From the IMG/VR virus record IMGVR_UViG_3300025154_002787, positions 1 to 20,190 of that record: a stretch of DNA of 20,190 nucleotides. The stretch is one strand, 5' to 3'. The notes under the pieces were generated by a model. The model was not told the DNA's origin. It did no database searches and saw only the letters and a program-made list of their open reading frames with translations. The position numbers and the translations under genes are program-made. Numbering within the stretch: the first letter of the stretch is position 1; each line of letters begins with the position of its first letter. Shown here piece after piece: positions 1-16,869 of the stretch. This DNA is from a virus.

Positions 1-243
1 ATGGTTAATAAGCATTTAGCAAAAGCCATCATTGATATTGCCGTCTTCTTAGAGTTCTCAAATGCGAACACATTGAATCCTGACGCTGCTGTTGCAGCCA
101 TGGAGCAGTTAGCAAATGAATTGCAGCAAATGCCAACTGACGTTAAACAAAGTCTTATCCATCATTTTCAGGAGCTCGCGAACGAATATGGAGACAAGGC
201 CAGATTCGTTGCAAGCTTGGCAGATACATTCGACATCAATTGA
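1..243 (+). CDS. Small hypothetical protein, probable non-phage flank
   Basis: An 80-residue reading frame starts with ATG at the first base of the window, so an upstream start or ribosome site cannot be judged. The predicted protein is soluble and mostly helical (for example AVAAMEQLANELQQM), acidic, with no signal peptide, membrane segment or Cys cluster. I do not recognise the family. The gene is visibly more AT-rich than the phage genes and points rightward, against the leftward late operon that begins at 600. It is followed by a hairpin and a repeat-rich spacer, so it most likely belongs to the DNA next to the prophage. A small immunity-type or regulatory protein is possible, but nothing in the sequence proves this. 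Confidence 0.6.
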   Translation: MVNKHLAKAIIDIAVFLEFSNANTLNPDAAVAAMEQLANELQQMPTDVKQSLIHHFQELANEYGDKARFVASLADTFDIN

Positions 244-3952: not shown

Positions 3953-5481
3953 GCTCTTCTCCCGCTGTAATTGTCATCGGTGCGCTTCGGCACGCTCTGG
4001 TATTCGATTGGAGCCACCTCGCGCTTCATCGCATAGTGTCCAAGGAAGAGGCTGATCGCCGAGTCGCCGTGGCGCTGTAACTGCGGACCGTCTCCCTTTT
4101 GGGTCTTCGATTTCGGAAGTTTTGGCACGCCGTCGATCAGTTTCAGCGCCCGTAGATCATCCCGAACCTGAACATCCTTGGGGATATCGTCCAGTGTTCC
4201 GTCCTGCAGGGCAGCCTTGAAGCGCGGCATGTTCGCCAGGTAGAACGAATCGCTCAGCATCACCTGCTCGATGCGTGCCTGGCCGAATTTCTGTGCAGCA
4301 CGTTCCGCCAGGTATTGACCGTTTCCGCGGGCATCAAAAGCAGCCGATCTGAAGCGCGGCAGACGGCTGAGAATGTAGAAAACGATCTGTTCCTGCTGGG
4401 TAAACGGACAATTTGCCAGCTCGATCTGCCCGCGCACGCGGATGGTCAGATCGCGGCCTTCTTCCATGATGTCAAAGGTGGTCAAGTCGCCAGAGCGCGC
4501 GAAATCCTCGCCAAAGCCGTGCGCCAGATCGATATTGAGCGCATCCAGCACCGGTTTCAGGTGTTCTTCGCACCAAGCCGCCACCTCGGCATAGCGCTCG
4601 CCGTCCGGCAGGTAGGCAAACTCCGATGTCCACTTGCCGCGCACCAGCGGCGTATCCGGGTTCATGCGCGCCTCGATCAGGCCCATCGTCAGGTAAGCAC
4701 CGCCCGATTGAGACGGCACCACGTCCAGCTCTTCTGCTGCGTCGTCGCCATAGAACGCATAAGCATCGGCCACCCAGGCCGCTTCGCCTTCTGCGGTCCA
4801 GTCGATACCGCGCCGCAGGCACACACGCTGATACAGCCCTTGCTCGACCGCCTCGCGGAAGGTGATGCGGTGCACGCTGCCCTTGCGCTTGCCGGCGCGC
4901 ACTTCCTGGATGAGTTCGTTGAACGGGTTGTCCTGGCCGTCGTGGGTCGAGAAGATGCGCACCTTGTCGCCCCACAGCAGCATAGCCATCGCTGCCTTTA
5001 GCAGCGCGGCCAGATCGTTGTGGAACGCGGCCTCGTCGATAACAATCACGCCCTGCTTGCCGCGCAGGTTGGTGGGGCGAGAGCTGAGCGCCACGATGCG
5101 GCGGCCGGTGGCAGGGAAGTCGATCTTGTAGGTTTTAATCTCCTTGTCGCCGTCGACGAAGATGCCTTCCTCGATCTCCGAGGCGGCATAGTCGAAGGCG
5201 CGCGCCCACATGGCGCATGCCTCGATGTATTCCAGCGCCATGTCCTGCGTGGGACCTATGTAGAACACGTTGGAGCTGAGCTCTTCCCGTGCCGCGATCA
5301 GCACGTCGTCGGCAGCCTCGCCCCATGTCCAGCCGACGCGGCGCGACTTCTCGCCGATCTTCAGCGGGCTGTCGTCGGCGATCCATCGCTGCTGATAGGG
5401 CAATAAAGCGGGAGGCGGCGCGTCCTTGCGCGCCGCATCACTGGGGAGACCGACCGGAACGGTTTTAACTGGGGATGCCAA
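3946..5481 (-). CDS. Terminase large subunit (Mu gp28-like)
   Basis: A 511-residue packaging motor ATPase and nuclease. The N-terminal ATPase domain has the SRRVGWTWGEA segment (46-56), the unconventional Walker A region typical of gp28 proteins. The Walker B sequence GVIVIDEAAFHND (144-156) places D149 and E150 at the active site. The C-terminal nuclease domain shows GEDFARSGDLT (324-334) and FDARGNGQ (382-389), whose aspartates are likely metal ligands. The only start that keeps the N-terminus is TTG at 5481, with AGGAG eight bases upstream; it overlaps the DUF3486 gene by 17 bases. No frameshift or missing motif is seen, so the gene looks functional. Confidence 0.94.
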   Translation of the reverse strand: MASPVKTVPVGLPSDAARKDAPPPALLPYQQRWIADDSPLKIGEKSRRVGWTWGEAADDVLIAAREELSSNVFYIGPTQDMALEYIEACAMWARAFDYAASEIEEGIFVDGDKEIKTYKIDFPATGRRIVALSSRPTNLRGKQGVIVIDEAAFHNDLAALLKAAMAMLLWGDKVRIFSTHDGQDNPFNELIQEVRAGKRKGSVHRITFREAVEQGLYQRVCLRRGIDWTAEGEAAWVADAYAFYGDDAAEELDVVPSQSGGAYLTMGLIEARMNPDTPLVRGKWTSEFAYLPDGERYAEVAAWCEEHLKPVLDALNIDLAHGFGEDFARSGDLTTFDIMEEGRDLTIRVRGQIELANCPFTQQEQIVFYILSRLPRFRSAAFDARGNGQYLAERAAQKFGQARIEQVMLSDSFYLANMPRFKAALQDGTLDDIPKDVQVRDDLRALKLIDGVPKLPKSKTQKGDGPQLQRHGDSAISLFLGHYAMKREVAPIEYQSVPKRTDDNYSGRRAW

Positions 5482-6874: not shown

Positions 6875-7159
6875 TTAAAGGTTGCTCGGTGACACAGACA
6901 GTTCGCCCTGGCACGCGCCCTGATAAGGCGCATCCGTCTCCCAGCGATACTTCCAGGTGCCCTTCTCGGTCAGCGCCACATCGCACTGGAACGAGCCGAC
7001 ACCCAGCCGGGTTACGGTGCCGGGGTAGGTGTAATTCGTGGTGACACCGGCGGGTGTCTTTACCTTCAGCGTCGCCGTGGCGGGGTCGGCAGCCGCGCCC
7101 GCCATATCCTTCACCTGCATCGATATGCGCCCCATCTCGCCTACCAGCCAATTAGCCAT
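6875..7159 (-). CDS. Small beta-rich (Ig-like) hypothetical phage protein
   Basis: A 94-residue protein with alternating hydrophobic strands (ISMQVKD, TATLKVKTPAG, GVGSFQCDVAL, GTWKYRWETD) and a closing ACQGELSVSP strand. This is the pattern of a single Ig-like or beta-sandwich domain. The strand-turn GTWKYRW is typical of extracellular or virion-surface domains. There is no signal peptide. The ATG at 7159 has a strong GGAGG upstream and overlaps the repeat-protein stop codon by eight bases. It is probably a small structural or decoration protein; the exact family is not recognised. Confidence 0.75.
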   Translation of the reverse strand: MANWLVGEMGRISMQVKDMAGAAADPATATLKVKTPAGVTTNYTYPGTVTRLGVGSFQCDVALTEKGTWKYRWETDAPYQGACQGELSVSPSNL

Positions 7160-8207
7160 GCGCCACCTCCGCAGTCAGGCTTGCCACACGGCTGAGTGAA
7201 TCGCTCAACGTCCACAAGCGCAGCGCCTGCGCGCTGTGGCTGCTTGTGCGGCCCACAGACGGCGTGATCGAGGCGAGTCGTGCAATGCCAGCCGACAGGG
7301 CCGCGATGCGCGCCACAGCCCCGCTGAGGCGCACCGGGTGCATCAGCATGAAGACGGTCAGGCTGCCGCTGGCCAGCGCCTGCGCCAGGGCATCGGCGCT
7401 CAGCGCGATGCGGGCCGTCAGCTCACCGGCGGCACCAACCAATGCGGCGGCTGGGCCAGTCAAGTGGATCTGCGTGGTGAGGATCGCGGCGGCGCTGGCC
7501 TGCGCTTGCGCAGCGCCTTCCAGTTGCGCGGCAGGGCCGGTGAAAGCGCCGCTGGCGCTGGCTTGGGCCGATGCATCGCCCGCCAGCGGGATAGCGCTGG
7601 TCAGCCCGGCAGCGGCCACGGCCTGCGCCAGCGCACCGCCGCCCAGCGTTATCTGTGCGGTAAGTTGTCCGTTGACGGTGACCAGCGCGATGGCGGCCCC
7701 GGACAGCGAGATCTGCGCGGACAGGTCGCCCGATGCGCCAACGCTGGCGATAGCTGCGCCGCCGAGCGAGATGCCAGATGTCAGCGCGGCGCTGGCATTG
7801 GCTTGTGCGATGGAATCGGCATACAGCTTGATGGCAGTAGTGAGAGCGCCGGTGGCCGCAGACACCGCAACAGCGGCACCGGCCAGTTCGGCAGCAGATC
7901 CGCCGACCGTCAGATCGGCGGCGGCTGTAGCCTGCGCAACCGCATCGGCATTGAGCCTGATCGCAGCATCGAGCGCGCCGGTCGCCGTGGCCAGCGCGAC
8001 GGCATCGGCGTTGAGTTGTATTGCAGATGACAGCGCGCCCGTGGCAGCGGCCAGCACTGCGGCATCACCCGCCAACGCGGCAGCGCCCGCAGAGACGGTG
8101 AACAGGTCGTCTTCAAGGACCAAGGCAGAATCGGGCGCATCCCAGGCGAACTCATCGCCTATCCATGCGCCTTCGTCCAGATCGTGCTGAAAGTTATCTC
8201 TCTGCAT
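7152..8207 (-). CDS. Alanine-rich 20-residue-repeat protein, putative virion protein
   Basis: A 351-residue protein. The first 40 residues are acidic (DEGAWIGDEFAWDAPD). Residues about 42-284 consist of about eleven tandem units of 20 residues with the pattern LTxxIxLxxxAxAxAxAxGx; LT or a related pair recurs at 122, 142, 162, 182, 202, 222, 243, 263 and 283. A different C-terminal segment (about 290-351) has a shorter S/A-rich periodicity (LSGAVARIAALSAGIARLASI). Alternating small and hydrophobic residues suggest a beta-solenoid or long fibrous rod. I do not recognise a named family. Position between structural-looking genes in the late operon suggests a virion fibre or surface protein, but this is inference. 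Confidence 0.75.
   Translation of the reverse strand: MQRDNFQHDLDEGAWIGDEFAWDAPDSALVLEDDLFTVSAGAAALAGDAAVLAAATGALSSAIQLNADAVALATATGALDAAIRLNADAVAQATAAADLTVGGSAAELAGAAVAVSAATGALTTAIKLYADSIAQANASAALTSGISLGGAAIASVGASGDLSAQISLSGAAIALVTVNGQLTAQITLGGGALAQAVAAAGLTSAIPLAGDASAQASASGAFTGPAAQLEGAAQAQASAAAILTTQIHLTGPAAALVGAAGELTARIALSADALAQALASGSLTVFMLMHPVRLSGAVARIAALSAGIARLASITPSVGRTSSHSAQALRLWTLSDSLSRVASLTAEVAHG
7356..8084 (-). repeat. Degenerate 60-base tandem repeats inside the Ala-rich gene
   Basis: About eleven in-frame units of roughly 60 bases encode the 20-residue protein repeats. The DNA copies are diverged, yet segments such as GCCGGTGGC and GCGATGGC recur. Such arrays can change copy number by recombination or slippage, which would lengthen or shorten the protein without breaking frame. 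Confidence 0.7.
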
Positions 8208-11075: not shown

Positions 11076-11114
11076 GGCACGCGAGGTTACGCGCGCGCGG
11101 GGAGAGGGTTAAGC

Positions 11115-11128
11115 CGGAAACGTTTCCG
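11115..11128. promoter_or_regulatory. Perfect palindrome upstream of the late operon
   Basis: CGGAAACGTTTCCG is a perfect 14-base palindrome 40 bases upstream of the first late gene (start 11075) and just past the terminator of the lysogeny operon. Its place is right for an activator or repressor site controlling the late promoter. I see no convincing -35/-10 pair beside it, as expected for activator-dependent late promoters. Function is inferred from position only. Confidence 0.45.
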
Positions 11129-11129
11129 C

Positions 11130-11158
11130 AAAAAAGAAAAACCCCGCACTGGGCGGGG
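11130..11158 (-). terminator. Intrinsic terminator of the lysogeny (repressor-lipoprotein) operon
   Basis: On the minus strand a GC stem GCGGGG... (arms 11153-11158 and 11142-11147, five-base loop) is followed at once by TTTTTCTTTTTT. It lies about 35 bases after the lipoprotein stop codon and separates leftward transcription of the repressor operon from the leftward late operon. Confidence 0.85.
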
Positions 11159-11191
11159 CTGGTTCAGTAGAGGGTGTGCGATTATTTATTT

Positions 11192-11614
11192 TTAGTAGAG
11201 CGTTCTCACTCGCACGTATTTTTCAGTCATGCTTCGCGCGGAATCCTCTGGCAATTCATTGAAATCTGCTACGGTTGAAATGTCGTAATTGTAGAAATAG
11301 GACTTTCCAGCTTCGCATTTCACGAGCCTAGGGGTTGCATAAGGACCAGAAATCCAATGTTCTCCAGGAACAACATCCTTCACCACATAGCTACCTGGTG
11401 CAAGTCTCGAAATCTCTCGTCCATCAATAGAAAGTGGCCATGCACCTACCGCCCCGAGTAGCATCACCTCGCGAATAATTACCAAAGTGGCCTTTCCTTC
11501 GGTGGGTTTCGAGATGAATTTCCCTTGTTCGTCATGTTTAAATTCAGGCGGGACAACTGCACATCCGGCAAGCAATATTGTCAACAAAGCAAATGGGATA
11601 AGCGCTCTTTTCAT
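11192..11614 (-). CDS. DUF2846-like lipoprotein, accessory (moron) gene
   Basis: A 140-residue lipoprotein if the ATG at 11614 is used, which has GGAG six bases upstream; in-frame starts at 11626 and a TTG at 11641 are weaker. The signal MKRALIPFALLTILLAGC ends in a lipobox (LAGC, Cys18) followed by Ala, which favours the outer membrane. The mature domain (ATLVIIREVMLLGAVGAWPLSIDGREISRL, APGSYVVKDVVPGEHW, KCEAGKSYFYNYD) matches the DUF2846-type fold. It is noticeably AT-richer than neighbours, suggesting a separate origin. It lies directly after the PDZ-YbjQ gene in the repressor transcript and so is probably made in the lysogen. Confidence 0.85.
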   Translation of the reverse strand: MKRALIPFALLTILLAGCAVVPPEFKHDEQGKFISKPTEGKATLVIIREVMLLGAVGAWPLSIDGREISRLAPGSYVVKDVVPGEHWISGPYATPRLVKCEAGKSYFYNYDISTVADFNELPEDSARSMTEKYVRVRTLY

Positions 11615-11627
11615 GTATTTCTCCATG

Positions 11628-12326
11628 TCAAATCTTCTCAACCACCACGGCTGTGCCGCTAGCCACGAGGAATAGCATACTCTTCCCGCCCCCGGATATC
11701 TCGCTGTAGTCCAGATCCACGCCGATCACAGCATTGGCGCCGAGGCGGTCGGCTTCTGCCTTCAGGTTGACCAGGCAAGATTCACGCGCTTCGCGCAGTT
11801 CGTCTTGCAACGATCCGCTGCGACCGCCGATCGCATCCGTAATGCTGGCAAAAAACTCCCGGATCACATTCACGCCGCCGACGTATTCGGCGGTGATGAT
11901 CTCGCGGTGGTCAACGATGCGATACCCTTCCAGTTGCGGCGCGGTGGTGGTTTTGATGCTGGATACGCGACGCATCCACTCTTCCAGCTTGGCCTGCTTT
12001 TGGGCTTCCCTTTCCTGCTCGGAAAGGATCTCTGATTCTTTTAGAAACCCGCTCAAAACCTCACCGACACCCTCGATCACTGTGTCCTGTATTGGGTATG
12101 TAACAAGCGAAATACCCAACGACCCAGCTGCCACGCGATGGTTAATGACTTGCCTGTTGCGGATCACCACCAGGTCGTTTTCAGCGCCAACATTAGCGGG
12201 TGAAACTAAATCCCTGATCGTTTCGAGTTCGAGGCCGTTGTATTTGTACAGCACATCATGCACGCGAATACCCAGCTTTGCGGCTTTCCCAGTTGGATCG
12301 ACATCGACAACAACGAGACCTGGCAT
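11628..12326 (-). CDS. PDZ-like domain fused to YbjQ/UPF0145 domain
   Basis: A 232-residue protein with two recognisable parts. Residues 1-75 form a PDZ-like core: VVVDVDPTGKAAKLGIRVHDVLYKYNG, then LVVIRNRQ and GSLGISLV. The usual N-terminal carboxylate-binding loop of PDZ domains is missing or very short. Residues about 76-123 are a charged helical linker. Residues about 124-232 match YbjQ/UPF0145: GYRIVDHREIITAEYVGG, LREARESCLVNLKAEADRLGANAVIGVDLDY, and a final AVVVE strand; that family forms ring oligomers of unknown function. No signal peptide, so cytoplasmic. Strong Shine-Dalgarno GGGAGG ahead of ATG 12326. It begins 11 bases after the repressor stop codon. Confidence 0.85.
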   Translation of the reverse strand: MPGLVVVDVDPTGKAAKLGIRVHDVLYKYNGLELETIRDLVSPANVGAENDLVVIRNRQVINHRVAAGSLGISLVTYPIQDTVIEGVGEVLSGFLKESEILSEQEREAQKQAKLEEWMRRVSSIKTTTAPQLEGYRIVDHREIITAEYVGGVNVIREFFASITDAIGGRSGSLQDELREARESCLVNLKAEADRLGANAVIGVDLDYSEISGGGKSMLFLVASGTAVVVEKI

Positions 12327-12337
12327 AACAACCTCCC

Positions 12338-12922
12338 TCAGAAAAAACTAGATGCATATGGTGGCGGTGGCGGAAACCTCTTCGCCCACCCAAGTCGCAT
12401 AAACACTTCCAGCAACTTCTGCATGCCGTCCTTATCGAGGCGCTTCATATGCTCAAGCCCACCGCTCTGCGCACTCATCTTCACCGACAGGTTATACAGA
12501 TCGGCGGCGTATCCAATCTGGACTGCGGCTGGTTGCGCCTCAAACTCGGCCCCGTGCACCTGCCTGCAAGCAGCGTGACAAGCCGCCAGGATATTCACCT
12601 CAATCGCCGAACCTGTCGCCTCTGATGATCCGCCAGCCATGTACACGTTTTCCAGTTGACGCAATCTTCTGGGAGATCCGGTAGTCACGGTTTGTGAATA
12701 TTCTGGTGAAAATACAGCATCGAGGGATATGCCGCGTCCGTTCGAGACGGCAACCACCTCGTCGTATGGAATCGACCCGCTCTTCTTGCGATTGGCGAAT
12801 GTATTGGGCTTCATGCCCAGTGCATCGGCCAGTTCGGCATCCGTTTTAACGGCTAGCAGAACCCGCAGCCGATCCATGACGGCGTCAAATAGTTCACGAT
12901 TTGTGTTTTCCGTGCTTGACAT
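12338..12922 (-). CDS. CI-type phage repressor lacking a peptidase domain
   Basis: A 194-residue protein. Residues about 11-71 match the phage CI repressor helix-turn-helix domain (FDAVMDRLRVLLAVKTDAELADALG, MKPNTFANRKKSGSIPYDEVVAVS, GISLDAVF). The rest is a helical domain of unknown type with several Cys (AACHAACRQVHG). It ends in an odd PPPPPYASSFF tail. The Ser-Lys peptidase (S24/LexA) domain used for RecA-driven self-cleavage is absent. Divergent from the early operon and beside a palindromic operator, it is the best candidate for the lysogeny repressor. The start codon overlaps the -35 box of the rightward early promoter, so both promoters are physically interlocked. Confidence 0.88.
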   Translation of the reverse strand: MSSTENTNRELFDAVMDRLRVLLAVKTDAELADALGMKPNTFANRKKSGSIPYDEVVAVSNGRGISLDAVFSPEYSQTVTTGSPRRLRQLENVYMAGGSSEATGSAIEVNILAACHAACRQVHGAEFEAQPAAVQIGYAADLYNLSVKMSAQSGGLEHMKRLDKDGMQKLLEVFMRLGWAKRFPPPPPYASSFF

Positions 12923-12943
12923 TCACGTTCCGTGTATTAAGAT
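12916..12943 (+). promoter_or_regulatory. Early rightward promoter
   Basis: A perfect TTGACA (12916-12921) is followed after 16 bases by TAAGAT (12938-12943, four of six match to TATAAT). Transcription would start just inside the palindrome at 12942-12962 and read the Ner-like gene. The -35 box overlaps the repressor start codon. Confidence 0.65.
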
Positions 12944-12962
12944 GCTCACAAATTGTGAACAT
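12942..12962. promoter_or_regulatory. Palindromic operator between repressor and early operon
   Basis: The core TCACAAATTGTGA (12946-12958) is a perfect palindrome around a central A. It extends to 21 bases with a single mismatched pair. It covers the expected start site of the early promoter, so a bound dimer would block it. CACGTTCCGTG (12924-12934), a second smaller palindrome, lies in the promoter spacer. The binder could be the repressor, the Ner-like protein, or both. Confidence 0.7.
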
Positions 12963-12987
12963 AATTGCATCACGAAAGGACACGAAC

Positions 12988-13182
12988 ATGTCTTCCGATC
13001 AGGTCAAAAAACGATTCAGACAGCAAGGCACCACCTTTACCGACTGGGCCAAAAAGAACGGCTACACCAGGAACGAGGTGTATCGGGTACTCAACGGCCA
13101 AGCCAAGGGCAACTACGGCAAGGCGCATGAGATCGCCGTCAAGCTCGGTCTGAAACAAGACCCCGAAAAACTCGCCGCCTAG
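12988..13182 (+). CDS. Ner-like small DNA-binding protein
   Basis: A 64-residue protein from ATG 12988, with AAAGGA eight bases upstream; the longer frame from 12901 would start before the promoter and is rejected. The sequence FTDWAKKNGYTRNEVYRVLNGQAKGNYGKAHEIAVKLGL is a helix-turn-helix of the small lambda-repressor type (about residues 13-50). First gene of the early operon and divergent from the repressor, it occupies the place of Ner/Cro, which shuts off repressor and early promoters after induction. Confidence 0.85.
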   Translation: MSSDQVKKRFRQQGTTFTDWAKKNGYTRNEVYRVLNGQAKGNYGKAHEIAVKLGLKQDPEKLAA

Positions 13183-13190
13183 GAGCCGCC

Positions 13191-13307
13191 ATGCGAATCG
13201 CTTTGTGTATAGCGGCATTTTACGCAATAAAAACTGCTTTCACTCATTCCAAGCGCCTATTTGTTTGGACGGCTGTTCAAGCACGTGAAGTGAGGTCATT
13301 CCAATGA
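13191..13307 (+). CDS. 38-residue hypothetical small protein
   Basis: A short frame from ATG 13191, with AGGAG five bases upstream, to a TGA that overlaps the next gene start as ATGA. The product starts MRIALCIAAFYAIKTAF, a short hydrophobic stretch, followed by a basic tail (KRLFVWTAVQAREVRSFQ). The region is AT-richer than the rest of the operon. Strong Shine-Dalgarno and exact coupling argue that it is translated; it may be a small membrane peptide or simply a coupler for the next gene. Confidence 0.5.
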   Translation: MRIALCIAAFYAIKTAFTHSKRLFVWTAVQAREVRSFQ

Positions 13308-13780
13308 CACGACGCAATTGGAAGCGCATCCAGCCCACCAGCCTGCGCCAGGCATTGGAGCTGTGCAAAGACCACGCCCGCGAACGCCTAAACCTGTCGG
13401 TCGAACTCATTGCAGACCGCATGGGGGTGACCGATCACTGGACCCTCTACAAGTGGATCCAGAAGGGCAGCATCCCGGCCAACATGATCCGGCCATACGA
13501 GATCGTCTGCGGAATCGATTACGTCACCCGCTGGCTGGCAGCAAGCGCAGGACGCTTGTTGATCGAAGTTCCTACCGGCCGCGCCGCCACCCCATCCGAC
13601 ATTCAAGCCCTGCAGGAGCTGCTCAATACAGCGGTCGGGCAGCTGCTCCAGTTCCACAGCGGCAAGGCGCAGGCGGATGACGCGCTGGCCGCGATCCAGC
13701 AGGGCATGGAGGGCTTGGCCTGGCACAAAGGCAACGTCGAGAAGCATCTGCAACCCGAGTTTCAATTCACTGAGGAATAG
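13304..13780 (+). CDS. HTH-containing early regulator (CII-like)
   Basis: A 158-residue protein. Residues about 9-60 have an HTH look: SLRQALELCKDHARERLNLS, VELIADRMGVTDHWTLYKWIQKGSIP, then MIRPYEIVCGIDYVTRWLA. This is similar to CII-type or small phage regulatory proteins in Mu-like phages. The C-terminal part (about 95-158) is helical and acidic, suited to oligomerisation. Shine-Dalgarno GAGG lies about eight bases upstream of the ATG. Second-rank regulator of the early operon by position; actual targets unknown. Confidence 0.75.
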   Translation: MTRRNWKRIQPTSLRQALELCKDHARERLNLSVELIADRMGVTDHWTLYKWIQKGSIPANMIRPYEIVCGIDYVTRWLAASAGRLLIEVPTGRAATPSDIQALQELLNTAVGQLLQFHSGKAQADDALAAIQQGMEGLAWHKGNVEKHLQPEFQFTEE

Positions 13781-13782
13781 GC

Positions 13783-14085
13783 ATGGCAACGAAACCAAAC
13801 CAATCCGCGACCAAGCTTTTCACCGTGCTGGACGTGCTGTGGCGCAACTTCGCCAATGGCTACACGCCGGGCGAATTGGCAAAGGCCACCGGACTCAGCG
13901 CCAGCAGCATCACCGTCTACGTCAAGACGCTGCAGGAGGCTGGATACGCCGAGCAGATACCAACCACAAACCGCATCCGCGTCTCCGTGCAGGCCGCGCG
14001 CAAGGCGCTGCAAGTGATGCAAAGCCTGGACGCCGAAGAGCGCCGCATCGGGGAAATTCGCAATCGCCTTTCAACATCAGCATAA
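13783..14085 (+). CDS. IclR-like winged-helix protein
   Basis: A 100-residue protein with a clear winged helix: FTVLDVLWRNFANGYTPGELAKATGLSASSITVYVKTLQEAGYAEQIPTTNRIRVS (about residues 12-68), of the IclR/MarR HTH type. A short C-terminal helix follows. The gene starts two bases after the previous stop, with GAGG seven bases before the ATG. Probably a DNA-binding early protein; no effector domain, so it likely acts constitutively. Confidence 0.82.
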   Translation: MATKPNQSATKLFTVLDVLWRNFANGYTPGELAKATGLSASSITVYVKTLQEAGYAEQIPTTNRIRVSVQAARKALQVMQSLDAEERRIGEIRNRLSTSA

Positions 14086-14097
14086 GGGAGCAACAAC

Positions 14098-15084
14098 ATG
14101 GCACGCAAAGCTACAACCACAACAGCTGAGTCGCACGTAGTCACCAAAGAACAGACGCCTGCAATCGATGCGGCTTTTCTGGCCGCCAATCAATTGGCGG
14201 TAATGAAGGATCAGTACAGCGAAGATCGCGATCTGGCCAACCAGATGCTTGGTCAGATTCAAATGAGCATTTCAATATCAAAATTCACGACGGTCGTGGG
14301 TTTGTCAAAGCTCCGCGAAATCAAGGAAAGCAAGCTTTATAAGGCTTTGGCGGGCAAAACCATCGTTTTGGCTAACGGCGAAAATACCCGACTCGTCGGG
14401 ACTTGGGCCGAATATTGCGAGTTGCTCGGGACTTCCGCCAACAAGATCGATGAAGACCTGATGAACCTCCGCGTCTTCGGCGAGGATGCGATGGAAAGCC
14501 TCACCCGCATCGGTGCCGGATACCGTGAACTGCGCCAACTGCGCAAACTGCCAGAAGACCAACAGGCCGCGCTGATCGAGGTCGCCAAGCTGGGTGACAA
14601 GGATTCGTTCATCGAGTTGGCCGAAGAGATCATCGCCAAGCATGCCAAGGAAAAGGAAGAGCTGACCAAGGCCAAAGCCGAGCTGCAGGCCGACTACGAG
14701 GCCCAAGGCACGATCATCAGGAAGAAAGACGAGAAGCTCAACAGCGTCGAGAAGCAGCTGCACAAGCTGCAAAACCGTGCCGGTGATTGGCATCCGCGCG
14801 CAACCGAGATCGCCATCGAAACCACACGTCATGCGGCTGGAGCGCTCGAAGCGCTCGACAAGCTCGATGCCATGCGCGATGCGATCCTGACCGAAGAGTT
14901 CGGCGAAGAAGATCGCGATGCCGCCATTGAGGCAATGGCGGTCGTGTACTACGACGGCGTGAGCCAGATCGCGGGCAGGCTGGCCGAGGTGATGGCGGCC
15001 TGTGAAGAGGTGTTCATCGGCTACAAGGAAAAAGCCCGCCCGATGCTGGACGTTGAAGCCTTTCAACCCAAGGCTAGCAAGTAA
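14098..15084 (+). CDS. Coiled-coil early protein upstream of transposase
   Basis: A 328-residue protein. The N-terminal half (about 25-150) is helical and contains GTWAEYCELLGTSANKIDEDLMNLRVFGEDA, which resembles the DUF3102-type HTH-like region of mobile-element proteins. Residues about 180-228 form a strongly charged coiled coil (AKEKEELTKAKAELQADYEAQ, IIRKKDEKLNSVEKQLHKLQ). The C-terminal part is helical again (EALDKLDAMRDAILTEEFGEEDRDAAIEAM). Shine-Dalgarno AGGGAG is present. Proteins of this kind commonly precede the transposase in BcepMu-type phages; a DNA-organising or transposition accessory role is plausible but unproven. Confidence 0.8.
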   Translation: MARKATTTTAESHVVTKEQTPAIDAAFLAANQLAVMKDQYSEDRDLANQMLGQIQMSISISKFTTVVGLSKLREIKESKLYKALAGKTIVLANGENTRLVGTWAEYCELLGTSANKIDEDLMNLRVFGEDAMESLTRIGAGYRELRQLRKLPEDQQAALIEVAKLGDKDSFIELAEEIIAKHAKEKEELTKAKAELQADYEAQGTIIRKKDEKLNSVEKQLHKLQNRAGDWHPRATEIAIETTRHAAGALEALDKLDAMRDAILTEEFGEEDRDAAIEAMAVVYYDGVSQIAGRLAEVMAACEEVFIGYKEKARPMLDVEAFQPKASK

Positions 15085-15093
15085 GGGGCGATC

Positions 15094-16869
15094 ATGGCGA
15101 TGAACGAGCCAGCAACCCTCAAGGTACAGGACGCCCTGCGCGAACTCGCGTGCCTTCTGGACGCAGCGCCGCATGGCGAGCGTTCGGCCATGATCGATGC
15201 CTTCGCCGAGATGTACCAATGGGGAAGAGGCCGGGTCTACAACCGCCTGAAAGAGGTGGGTTGGTCCAGCGGCCGCAAGACGCGCTCGGATTGCGGCACA
15301 ACCTCGCAGGACATGGCCGTGCTGACCGACGTGTGCGCCACGCTGCGCATCGGCCAGCGCAAGAACGGCAAGGCTACCATGCACACGCCAACCGCCGTCT
15401 CCCTGTTATCGCAGAACGGCCGCGAGATCACCGTCTCCAACAGCCGCGTCAACGCGCTGCTCAAGGCCAACCAGATGAACATGGCATCGCAGCGCCTGGA
15501 CCGCGCCGCACAGTCCATGCGTTCGCTGCATCCCAACCATGTGCACCAGGTAGACCCGTCGCTGTGCCTGATCTACTACATGCCGGACGGCAAGCAACGC
15601 ATCATCCAGGAAGACGAGTTCTACAAGAACAAGCTGGAGAACGTTGCCAAGCTCAAACTCAAGGTGTGGCGCTACGTCCTCACCGACCATTTCAGCAACA
15701 CCACCCTCGTGCGCTACTACCAGGCCAAGGGTGAGACGCAGGCCAACCTGTTCGACTTCCTGCTGTATTGCTGGAACAAGCAGGAAGGCCGCGTTATGCA
15801 CGGAGTCCCGCAAATGCTGTACTGGGACAAGGGCAGCGCCAACACAGCCGGTGCGATCAAGAACGCGCTGCGCGCCCTGCAGGTCGAGGCCATCGAACAC
15901 AAGGCCAAGAACCCCCGCGCCAAGGGCTCCGTTGAGAACGGCAACAACCGTGTCGAATGCCTGTTTGAAAGCCGCCTGATGTACGAGCCGGTCGAGAACG
16001 TGGACCAGCTCAACGCCGCCGCCGAGGGCTGGTACAACGCCTACAACGCCGACGCCATCCCCAACTACGACGCGCGCCTGCATCGCAAATACATGGCTGA
16101 GCCAACGGCGCGCTATGCCCTGTGGCAGATGATCCGCCGCGAGCAGCTGCGCATCCTGCCGCAGGTAGACCTGTGCCGCCTGCTGCTCTCTGCCGACAAC
16201 ATCGAGCGCAAGGTAGACCAGGAACTGACCATCAGCTTCAAACACCCCGGCCCCAAGCAGCGCCTGCATTACGACGTGGGCCATATCCCCGGCGTATTCT
16301 TCGGCGCGATGGTTAAGGTATCGCCCCTGGTGTACGGCGAAAACCAAGTGCTGGTAACCGTTACGGACTACAAGAATGAAGAAACCACCCACATCGTTTC
16401 TCCCGTTGCTGCTGATGCTGGTGGCTTCCGCGCCGACGGCGCCGTTTACGGTGAAGAATACAAATCTCGCCCCGATACCGTCATCGAGACGGCGGGCAAG
16501 GCCGCCGATCAGGCCGCCTATGCAGGGCTATCAATCGAAGAAATCGAAAAGGCCAAGAACAAGAACGCCGTCCCGTTTGGCGGCTTGGATGCTCACTCGC
16601 ATCTGAAGGACGTAGCAGCGCCATCGTTCATGGATCGCCCTGGCGAACGCCTGAACGTGCCCAGCCCCATCCACGTCGAGATCAAGCCACTCACCCACAC
16701 CCAAGCCTCAATGCGCCTGCGCAGCATGCTGGGAAGGCCGGTTACGGCTGAGGATCGGGCGCACCTGGTCGAGTGGTACCCGGACGGAATCATGGAAGAG
16801 AAGCTGCAGGAAGCGGCGGATCACCTGGATGGGAAGTTCGCGGCGCCGGTGCTGCGGTTGGTTGGCTGA
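15094..16869 (+). CDS. DDE transposase (MuA-like, BcepMu type)
   Basis: A 591-residue transposase. The N-terminus (about 1-125) carries HTH-like DNA-binding segments (AMIDAFAEMYQWGRGRVYNRLKEVGW; TPTAVSLLSQNGREITVSNSRVNALL). The RNase H-like core shows the DDE triad: D154 (HQVDPSLCLIYY), D245 (LYWDKGSAN) and E281 (AKGSVENGNN) with 35 residues between the last two. A Mu-type C-terminal beta-barrel covers about 350-425. The remaining tail probably contacts the ATPase. It catalyses strand cutting and joining at the element ends for integration and replicative transposition. All catalytic residues are intact. Start ATG 15094 has GGGG just upstream. Confidence 0.95.
   Translation: MAMNEPATLKVQDALRELACLLDAAPHGERSAMIDAFAEMYQWGRGRVYNRLKEVGWSSGRKTRSDCGTTSQDMAVLTDVCATLRIGQRKNGKATMHTPTAVSLLSQNGREITVSNSRVNALLKANQMNMASQRLDRAAQSMRSLHPNHVHQVDPSLCLIYYMPDGKQRIIQEDEFYKNKLENVAKLKLKVWRYVLTDHFSNTTLVRYYQAKGETQANLFDFLLYCWNKQEGRVMHGVPQMLYWDKGSANTAGAIKNALRALQVEAIEHKAKNPRAKGSVENGNNRVECLFESRLMYEPVENVDQLNAAAEGWYNAYNADAIPNYDARLHRKYMAEPTARYALWQMIRREQLRILPQVDLCRLLLSADNIERKVDQELTISFKHPGPKQRLHYDVGHIPGVFFGAMVKVSPLVYGENQVLVTVTDYKNEETTHIVSPVAADAGGFRADGAVYGEEYKSRPDTVIETAGKAADQAAYAGLSIEEIEKAKNKNAVPFGGLDAHSHLKDVAAPSFMDRPGERLNVPSPIHVEIKPLTHTQASMRLRSMLGRPVTAEDRAHLVEWYPDGIMEEKLQEAADHLDGKFAAPVLRLVG

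Follow-up and report, generated by a model that had tools for sequence, protein, structure and literature searches.

The two genes that follow the immunity repressor of a B3/BcepMu-type transposable prophage, encoding a PDZ-YbjQ protein and a DUF2846 lipoprotein, are probably cargo expressed in the lysogen, judging from the layout of the region and from the transcription of a comparable phage. This degree of belief covers the lysogen-expressed cargo reading and not the phenotype, for which protection at the envelope would be the most likely candidate. The window that we analyzed, a stretch of 20,190 nucleotides, lies within an integrated prophage of ~40 kb, flanked on each side by host genes; the complete prophage lies at about 23.6 to 63.6 kb of contig C23. 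It carries genes for a DDE transposase, a MuB-like ATPase and a BcepMu gp16-type regulator, which place it among the transposable prophages (Table 1).

Table 1. Features of the repressor region and of the genes that mark the phage type, in window coordinates
Feature	Position	Strand	Evidence or remark
Intrinsic terminator, closes the unit	11140..11160	-	Terminator scan; near-identical in L030 and L155
Exchangeable cargo interval	11161..12359	.	Limits are the breakpoints of homology with L155
DUF2846 lipoprotein, 140 aa	11192..11614	-	Pfam DUF2846, E 1.6e-9; phrog_890 lipoprotein
PDZ-YbjQ, 232 aa	11628..12326	-	YbjQ_1, E 2.2e-28; PHROG 15412, 7e-37
YbjQ domain of PDZ-YbjQ	11640..11951	-	
Putative PDZ domain of PDZ-YbjQ	about 12117..12326	-	
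Immunity repressor, 194 aa	12338..12922	-	Pfam Phage_CI_repr, E 3.9e-9
Operator-like palindrome ATGCTCACAA-T-TTGTGAACAT, repressor/gp16 gap	12942..12962	.	Inverted repeats
BcepMu gp16/Ner-like regulator	12988..13182	+	TIGR04111, E 2.9e-27; phrog_925
Transposase and MuB-like genes, mark the phage type	15094..18235	+	phrog_310, E 2e-75; phrog_296, E 2e-59

Organization of the repressor unit

The repressor, PDZ-YbjQ and lipoprotein genes lie head to tail, in that order, on the minus strand (11192-12922). The first two are separated by 11 nt, read from the sequence as GAGGGAGG followed by ATG, and the second and third by 13 nt when ATG 11614 is taken as the lipoprotein start. This codon has a GGAG 6 nt upstream, and TTG 11641, the mechanical start, is the less likely choice. 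Both gaps contain a Shine-Dalgarno sequence. A terminator scan found no minus-strand terminator between the three genes and a strong intrinsic terminator after them (folding energy, -14.7 kcal/mol; z, -3.1). The initial annotation had described just such a head-to-tail layout, with gaps of about 11 to 13 bases and a terminator only at the end, and the lipoprotein start is the sole refinement that this description needs. A simple scan detected no sigma-70-like minus-strand promoter within the unit and no clear one before the repressor; because the same scan was blank in front of the repressor as well, its silence inside the unit carries little weight.

In an AlphaFold model, the repressor has an N-terminal CI-type HTH, a disordered linker, a helical C-terminal domain and a proline-rich tail; it lacks an S24 peptidase domain. 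Searches with its C-terminal domain and with PDZ-YbjQ led us to two close relatives of the prophage, L155 and L030, whose repressors are 68% and 42% identical to that of the window. The C-terminal domain was also found in two genomes (G060 and G129), in regulators that have no tail and no adjacent YbjQ gene; no relatives of the repressor were found in phage records. In the tail itself (FPPPPPYASSFF, 12338-12392), the prolines and the terminal FF are kept in L030 and L155 and the residues between them vary (PPPPPYASSFF in the window, PPPPTMSDRFF in L030, PPSVFF in L155). The tail is possibly a recognition tag for a protease or a partner.

Divergent from the repressor is the gp16/Ner-like gene, which is 75% identical to B3 ORF17 and opens the lytic early operon, with CII-like, transposase and MuB genes downstream. 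The palindrome between the two divergent genes lies in sequence that is near-identical in L155, and a related half-site is found at 12892-12905, inside the start of the repressor gene. We infer that the palindrome acts as an operator and that the repressor is autoregulated.

In PDZ-YbjQ, a helical linker joins the two domains. The protein matches the whole YbjQ_1 domain (PF01906) at 99 bits, against a Pfam cut-off of 23, and the YbjQ part of its structure model is of high confidence (TM 0.87, by target length, to 1y2i). The N-terminal PDZ assignment, made from sequence profiles, is weak but supported: the match to PDZ_6 (E 1e-4) falls below the Pfam cut-off, and a four-sequence profile hits solved PDZ domains, those of aq_1964, an RseP homologue (2.5e-7), and DegP (1.3e-5). 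The PDZ part of the structure model is of low confidence, too uncertain for use. Solved YbjQ structures are pentamers, and their fold resembles those of RcsF and DUF1471 proteins (PMC4092069); weak Foldseek matches include RcsF and the periplasmic domain of IgaA. PDZ-YbjQ, taken to be a cytoplasmic protein, is probably a pentamer like the solved proteins.

The third gene encodes a protein with a signal sequence, an LAGC lipobox and a DUF2846 match of 38.1 bits against a cut-off of 34.3. Its GC content of 46% (GC3, 42%) lies below that of the other window genes (59 +/- 5 and 73 +/- 8, respectively), suggesting recent acquisition; the PDZ-YbjQ gene, at 55% GC, is within the range of the window genes.

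The interval behind the repressor is exchanged between relatives

When the window was aligned to L155 with blastn, the match ran from 12360 to 16601, covering the early region, and resumed from 11160 down to 10954. Homology thus ends 22 nt inside the 3' end of the repressor gene and restarts exactly where the terminator stem begins. Between these two breakpoints the content is replaced: genes for a 203-aa protein and a 114-aa exported protein occupy the place in L155, which has no PDZ-YbjQ. L030 keeps the repressor and PDZ-YbjQ, with a 126-aa exported protein instead of the lipoprotein and the same terminator after it; the exported proteins of L155 and L030 share phrog_2320. Judged by these alignments, the stretch from the repressor 3' end to the conserved terminator is a cargo slot whose content can be exchanged.

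The repressor-holin interval of other phages of this type (B3, Ps59, JBD25, H71, KS10, PM105 and TJ1) likewise holds varied genes, and lipoproteins or membrane proteins are often among the products. Of the 10 B3/BcepMu-type slots examined, 9 encode one or more exported or membrane proteins, an enrichment that is modest and was counted by hand (Fisher P, 0.012).

The cargo is probably transcribed in the lysogen

Expression of the slot has a direct analogue in the beetrevirus Fc02, for which strand-specific RNA-seq of the lysogen found transcription limited to the repressor region, including e4, the accessory gene next after repc; transcription of the Fc02 holin and head clusters began only after induction (PMC9936078). 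The cargo of Fc02 differs from the pair studied here. By this analogy, the repressor of our prophage would be co-transcribed with both cargo genes, and the three genes would form a lysogenic transcription unit, headed by an autoregulated immunity repressor, with the terminator separating the cargo from the lytic lysis and head genes. Given that the cargo would be read with the repressor and that the terminator would cut off the lytic genes, the two proteins would be made in dormancy and would serve the lysogen. Their likeliest service would be to protect the host cell or the resident prophage at the envelope, as superinfection exclusion or stress tolerance.

The initial annotation had proposed that both extra genes are conversion genes expressed in the lysogen. 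The Fc02 data support co-transcription with the repressor and lysogen expression by analogy, and the exact edges of the swapped interval support accessory status. Its further statement that neither gene is a standard phage function is not quite right, since YbjQ is a recurrent phage accessory and lipoproteins are common in B3-like slots.

YbjQ genes recur behind unrelated repressors and at other accessory positions

YbjQ proteins are encoded in many phage contigs, nearly all with a CxxC...CxxC zinc-ribbon-like N terminus, a cysteine motif that the PDZ variant lacks. A repressor-type gene lies directly upstream of YbjQ in 14 of the 46 callable phage loci, those of Rhodobacter phage RC1 and Rhodovulum phage RS1 included, or in 12 once near-duplicates are removed, where ~2.5 would be expected at a chance rate of 5.5% per gene; the P value of 5e-6 depends on this rate, which is our assumption, and on loci that are not fully independent. 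The classification of neighbors finds repressor-type genes best, because its seeds came from these loci. Ten upstream seed genes were checked against Pfam, and each proved to encode either an S24 CI repressor or a short XRE protein. As the repressors before YbjQ differ in family (S24 CI, short XRE, helical), the link is to the transcription unit and not to one repressor.

YbjQ as an obligate partner of the repressor was rejected as a general rule: the upstream repressors are non-homologous, and YbjQ lies elsewhere in half or more of the callable loci from phages. At ~15 further phage loci, it is a lone gene divergent from the tape-measure gene, a typical moron position. In many prophages (L045-L069, at about 4700-5400), a zinc-ribbon YbjQ gene lies 43 to 141 nt from the tape-measure gene and is divergent from it, and in L013 and L031 YbjQ is opposite a Mu-type head protease gene. 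That YbjQ recurs at accessory positions of several unrelated kinds favors a function directed at the host or the lysogen.

The PDZ form turned up in just five loci, the window, L030, L004, G027 and G227; the last was the sole addition when 768 genome entries at order and class level were searched. In all five, the direct neighbor of PDZ-YbjQ is an exported protein or lipoprotein, a pattern drawn from few cases and from a class of genes that is not rare. Besides the DUF2846 lipoprotein of the window and the exported protein of L030, these neighbors are a 143-aa lipoprotein in L004, an RcsF-like lipoprotein in G027 (Pfam RcsF, 6.8e-5; NCBIfam RcsF, 9e-7; both below cut-off) and an SH3-like exported protein in G227, and all are mutually unrelated. 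The layout of repressor, PDZ-YbjQ and lipoprotein occurs twice in unrelated phages, since L004 is of the integrase type and its repressor is unrelated to that of the window; the first and third genes of the two loci are not homologous. No relatives of the DUF2846 lipoprotein were found in phage records or viral contigs. In G027 (L171:767-1939), the RcsF-like lipoprotein gene and PDZ-YbjQ, which have related folds, lie behind a terminase-like gene and beside host genes.

Chromosomal YbjQ genes showed no excess of membrane proteins beside them, and genomic context therefore gives no support to an envelope role of YbjQ itself. In several bacteria, mainly alphaproteobacteria, the chromosomal gene lies directly beside sufC/sufB-like or glutamate-synthase genes (L092, L094, L108, L111, L115, L118, L126, L134, L146; L109, L112, L142; representatives checked against NCBIfam), a clue that links YbjQ to Fe-S proteins.

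Possible functions of the cargo

We rank exclusion or envelope protection first among the possible functions, metal or Fe-S stress second and modulation of the repressor third. For an envelope or stress trait of the host, as the initial annotation had proposed, the hints are indirect: the exported neighbors, one of them RcsF-like, the RcsF-related fold and the suf adjacency.

A narrower form of this explanation makes the pair a specific superinfection-exclusion or defense module, with a cytoplasmic sensor and a lipoprotein. Such a module is possible, and we propose it tentatively. Lipoproteins recur in the slot, an exported neighbor accompanies every PDZ-YbjQ gene found, and exclusion is seen in B3-like lysogens, where Fc02 genes beside the repressor (olg1 and gene 10) exclude phages (PMC9936078, which cites doi 10.1128/JVI.00953-20 for exclusion in B3-like prophages). 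The Fc02 exclusion genes, however, sit upstream of the repressor and outside the slot, the exported partners are unrelated to one another, and neither PDZ-YbjQ nor the lipoprotein matched a known anti-phage defense family in PADLOC. A broader proposal, more doubtful than this module, is that YbjQ joined to a reader domain (PDZ or zinc ribbon) is a widespread lysogeny factor behind unrelated repressors, of which the PDZ form and its exported protein would be a cytoplasm-to-envelope module for stress or exclusion.

The YbjQ cargo could instead give the lysogen tolerance of metal or redox (Fe-S) stress, with the lipoprotein as an unrelated neighbor. Pfam labels YbjQ_1 as "putative heavy-metal-binding," and the suf and glutamate-synthase adjacency and the cysteine motif of most phage YbjQ proteins are in keeping with such a role. 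Yet the metal-binding label of YbjQ comes from annotation, the PDZ variant is without the cysteines and the suf link is confined to one clade, and we consider this account unlikely.

PDZ domains of the RseP/DegP type bind hydrophobic C termini. The PDZ domain of PDZ-YbjQ might accordingly bind the FF tail of the repressor and tune its activity or stability, such that stress would sway induction. The tail is proline-rich, disordered and ends in FF in both the window and L030, and PDZ-YbjQ or YbjQ directly follows a repressor in many phages. This possibility is weakened because L155 keeps the FF tail without any PDZ-YbjQ; moreover, in L004 PDZ-YbjQ follows a non-homologous repressor that ends in GGDV, most repressor-linked YbjQ proteins have a zinc ribbon and not a PDZ domain, and many phage YbjQ genes are far from repressors. 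We regard a role as repressor partner as improbable. Least credible is that the two ORFs are passive passengers or belong to the lytic phase, unexpressed in the lysogen or devoid of function, a view for which the blank promoter scan speaks, but against which stand the strong Shine-Dalgarno sequences, the intact frames, the similarity of PDZ-YbjQ to its L030 version (64% identity, YbjQ core residues kept), the conserved closing terminator and the transcription of the Fc02 analogue in the lysogen (PMC9936078).

Relation to known systems

Lysogen-expressed cargo behind the repressor has its closest parallel in Fc02 and B3 (Beetrevirus), which share with our prophage the divergent repressor and Ner/gp16-like genes, the transposase operon on the far side and the variable gene or genes between repressor and lysis genes, lysogen-transcribed by RNA-seq (PMC9936078). 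They differ in host, in a repressor that is not recognizably similar by tblastn, and in cargo (e4 and B3-type lipoproteins versus PDZ-YbjQ and a DUF2846 lipoprotein). Rhodobacter phage RC1 and Rhodovulum phage RS1 are Mu-like, with a gene for a YbjQ protein 17 nt behind that of a CI-like repressor, but the repressor is of the S24 type, the YbjQ protein has a zinc-ribbon-like N terminus and no PDZ, and no lipoprotein gene follows. The YbjQ protein of E. coli and Shigella (UPF0145; PDB 1y2i, 1vr4, 2gtc) is 44% identical to the phage domain (Foldseek E 1.7e-10 to 1y2i), but it stands alone as a chromosomal protein of about 107 aa and lacks a PDZ domain. In lambda, the accessory exclusion genes rexA-rexB belong to the cI operon and are transcribed along with the repressor in lysogens. 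The likeness to rexA-rexB is an analogy of layout only (rex is mentioned in PMC4378225).

An accessory gene at this slot and its lysogenic transcription are already known for B3-like phages. The cargo described here and the recurrent repressor-YbjQ pairing appear to be undescribed, and we found no paper on a repressor-YbjQ association in the open-licence literature. The slot, with edges set to the base, is a place to seek phage genes that alter dormant hosts. YbjQ is a widespread bacterial protein, and its repeated capture by unrelated phages, often into a place where it would be transcribed with the repressor, is a lead to what it does: a phage gene retained at that place would be expected to exert a selectable effect in the lysogen.

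Other features of the window

Just past the terminator, at 11090-11140, lies GCGGAAACGTTTCCGGCTTAA with the palindrome GGAAACGTTTCC, which is kept in L030 and mostly in L155; this site may serve to control the lysis/packaging operon. The minus-strand late genes include one at 7152-8207 that encodes a 351-aa alanine-rich protein with repeated units of ALAxATGALxxxIxLxADAVA and no Pfam match. At the left prophage/host junction, window positions 1-243 on the plus strand hold an 80-aa ORF with 42% GC.
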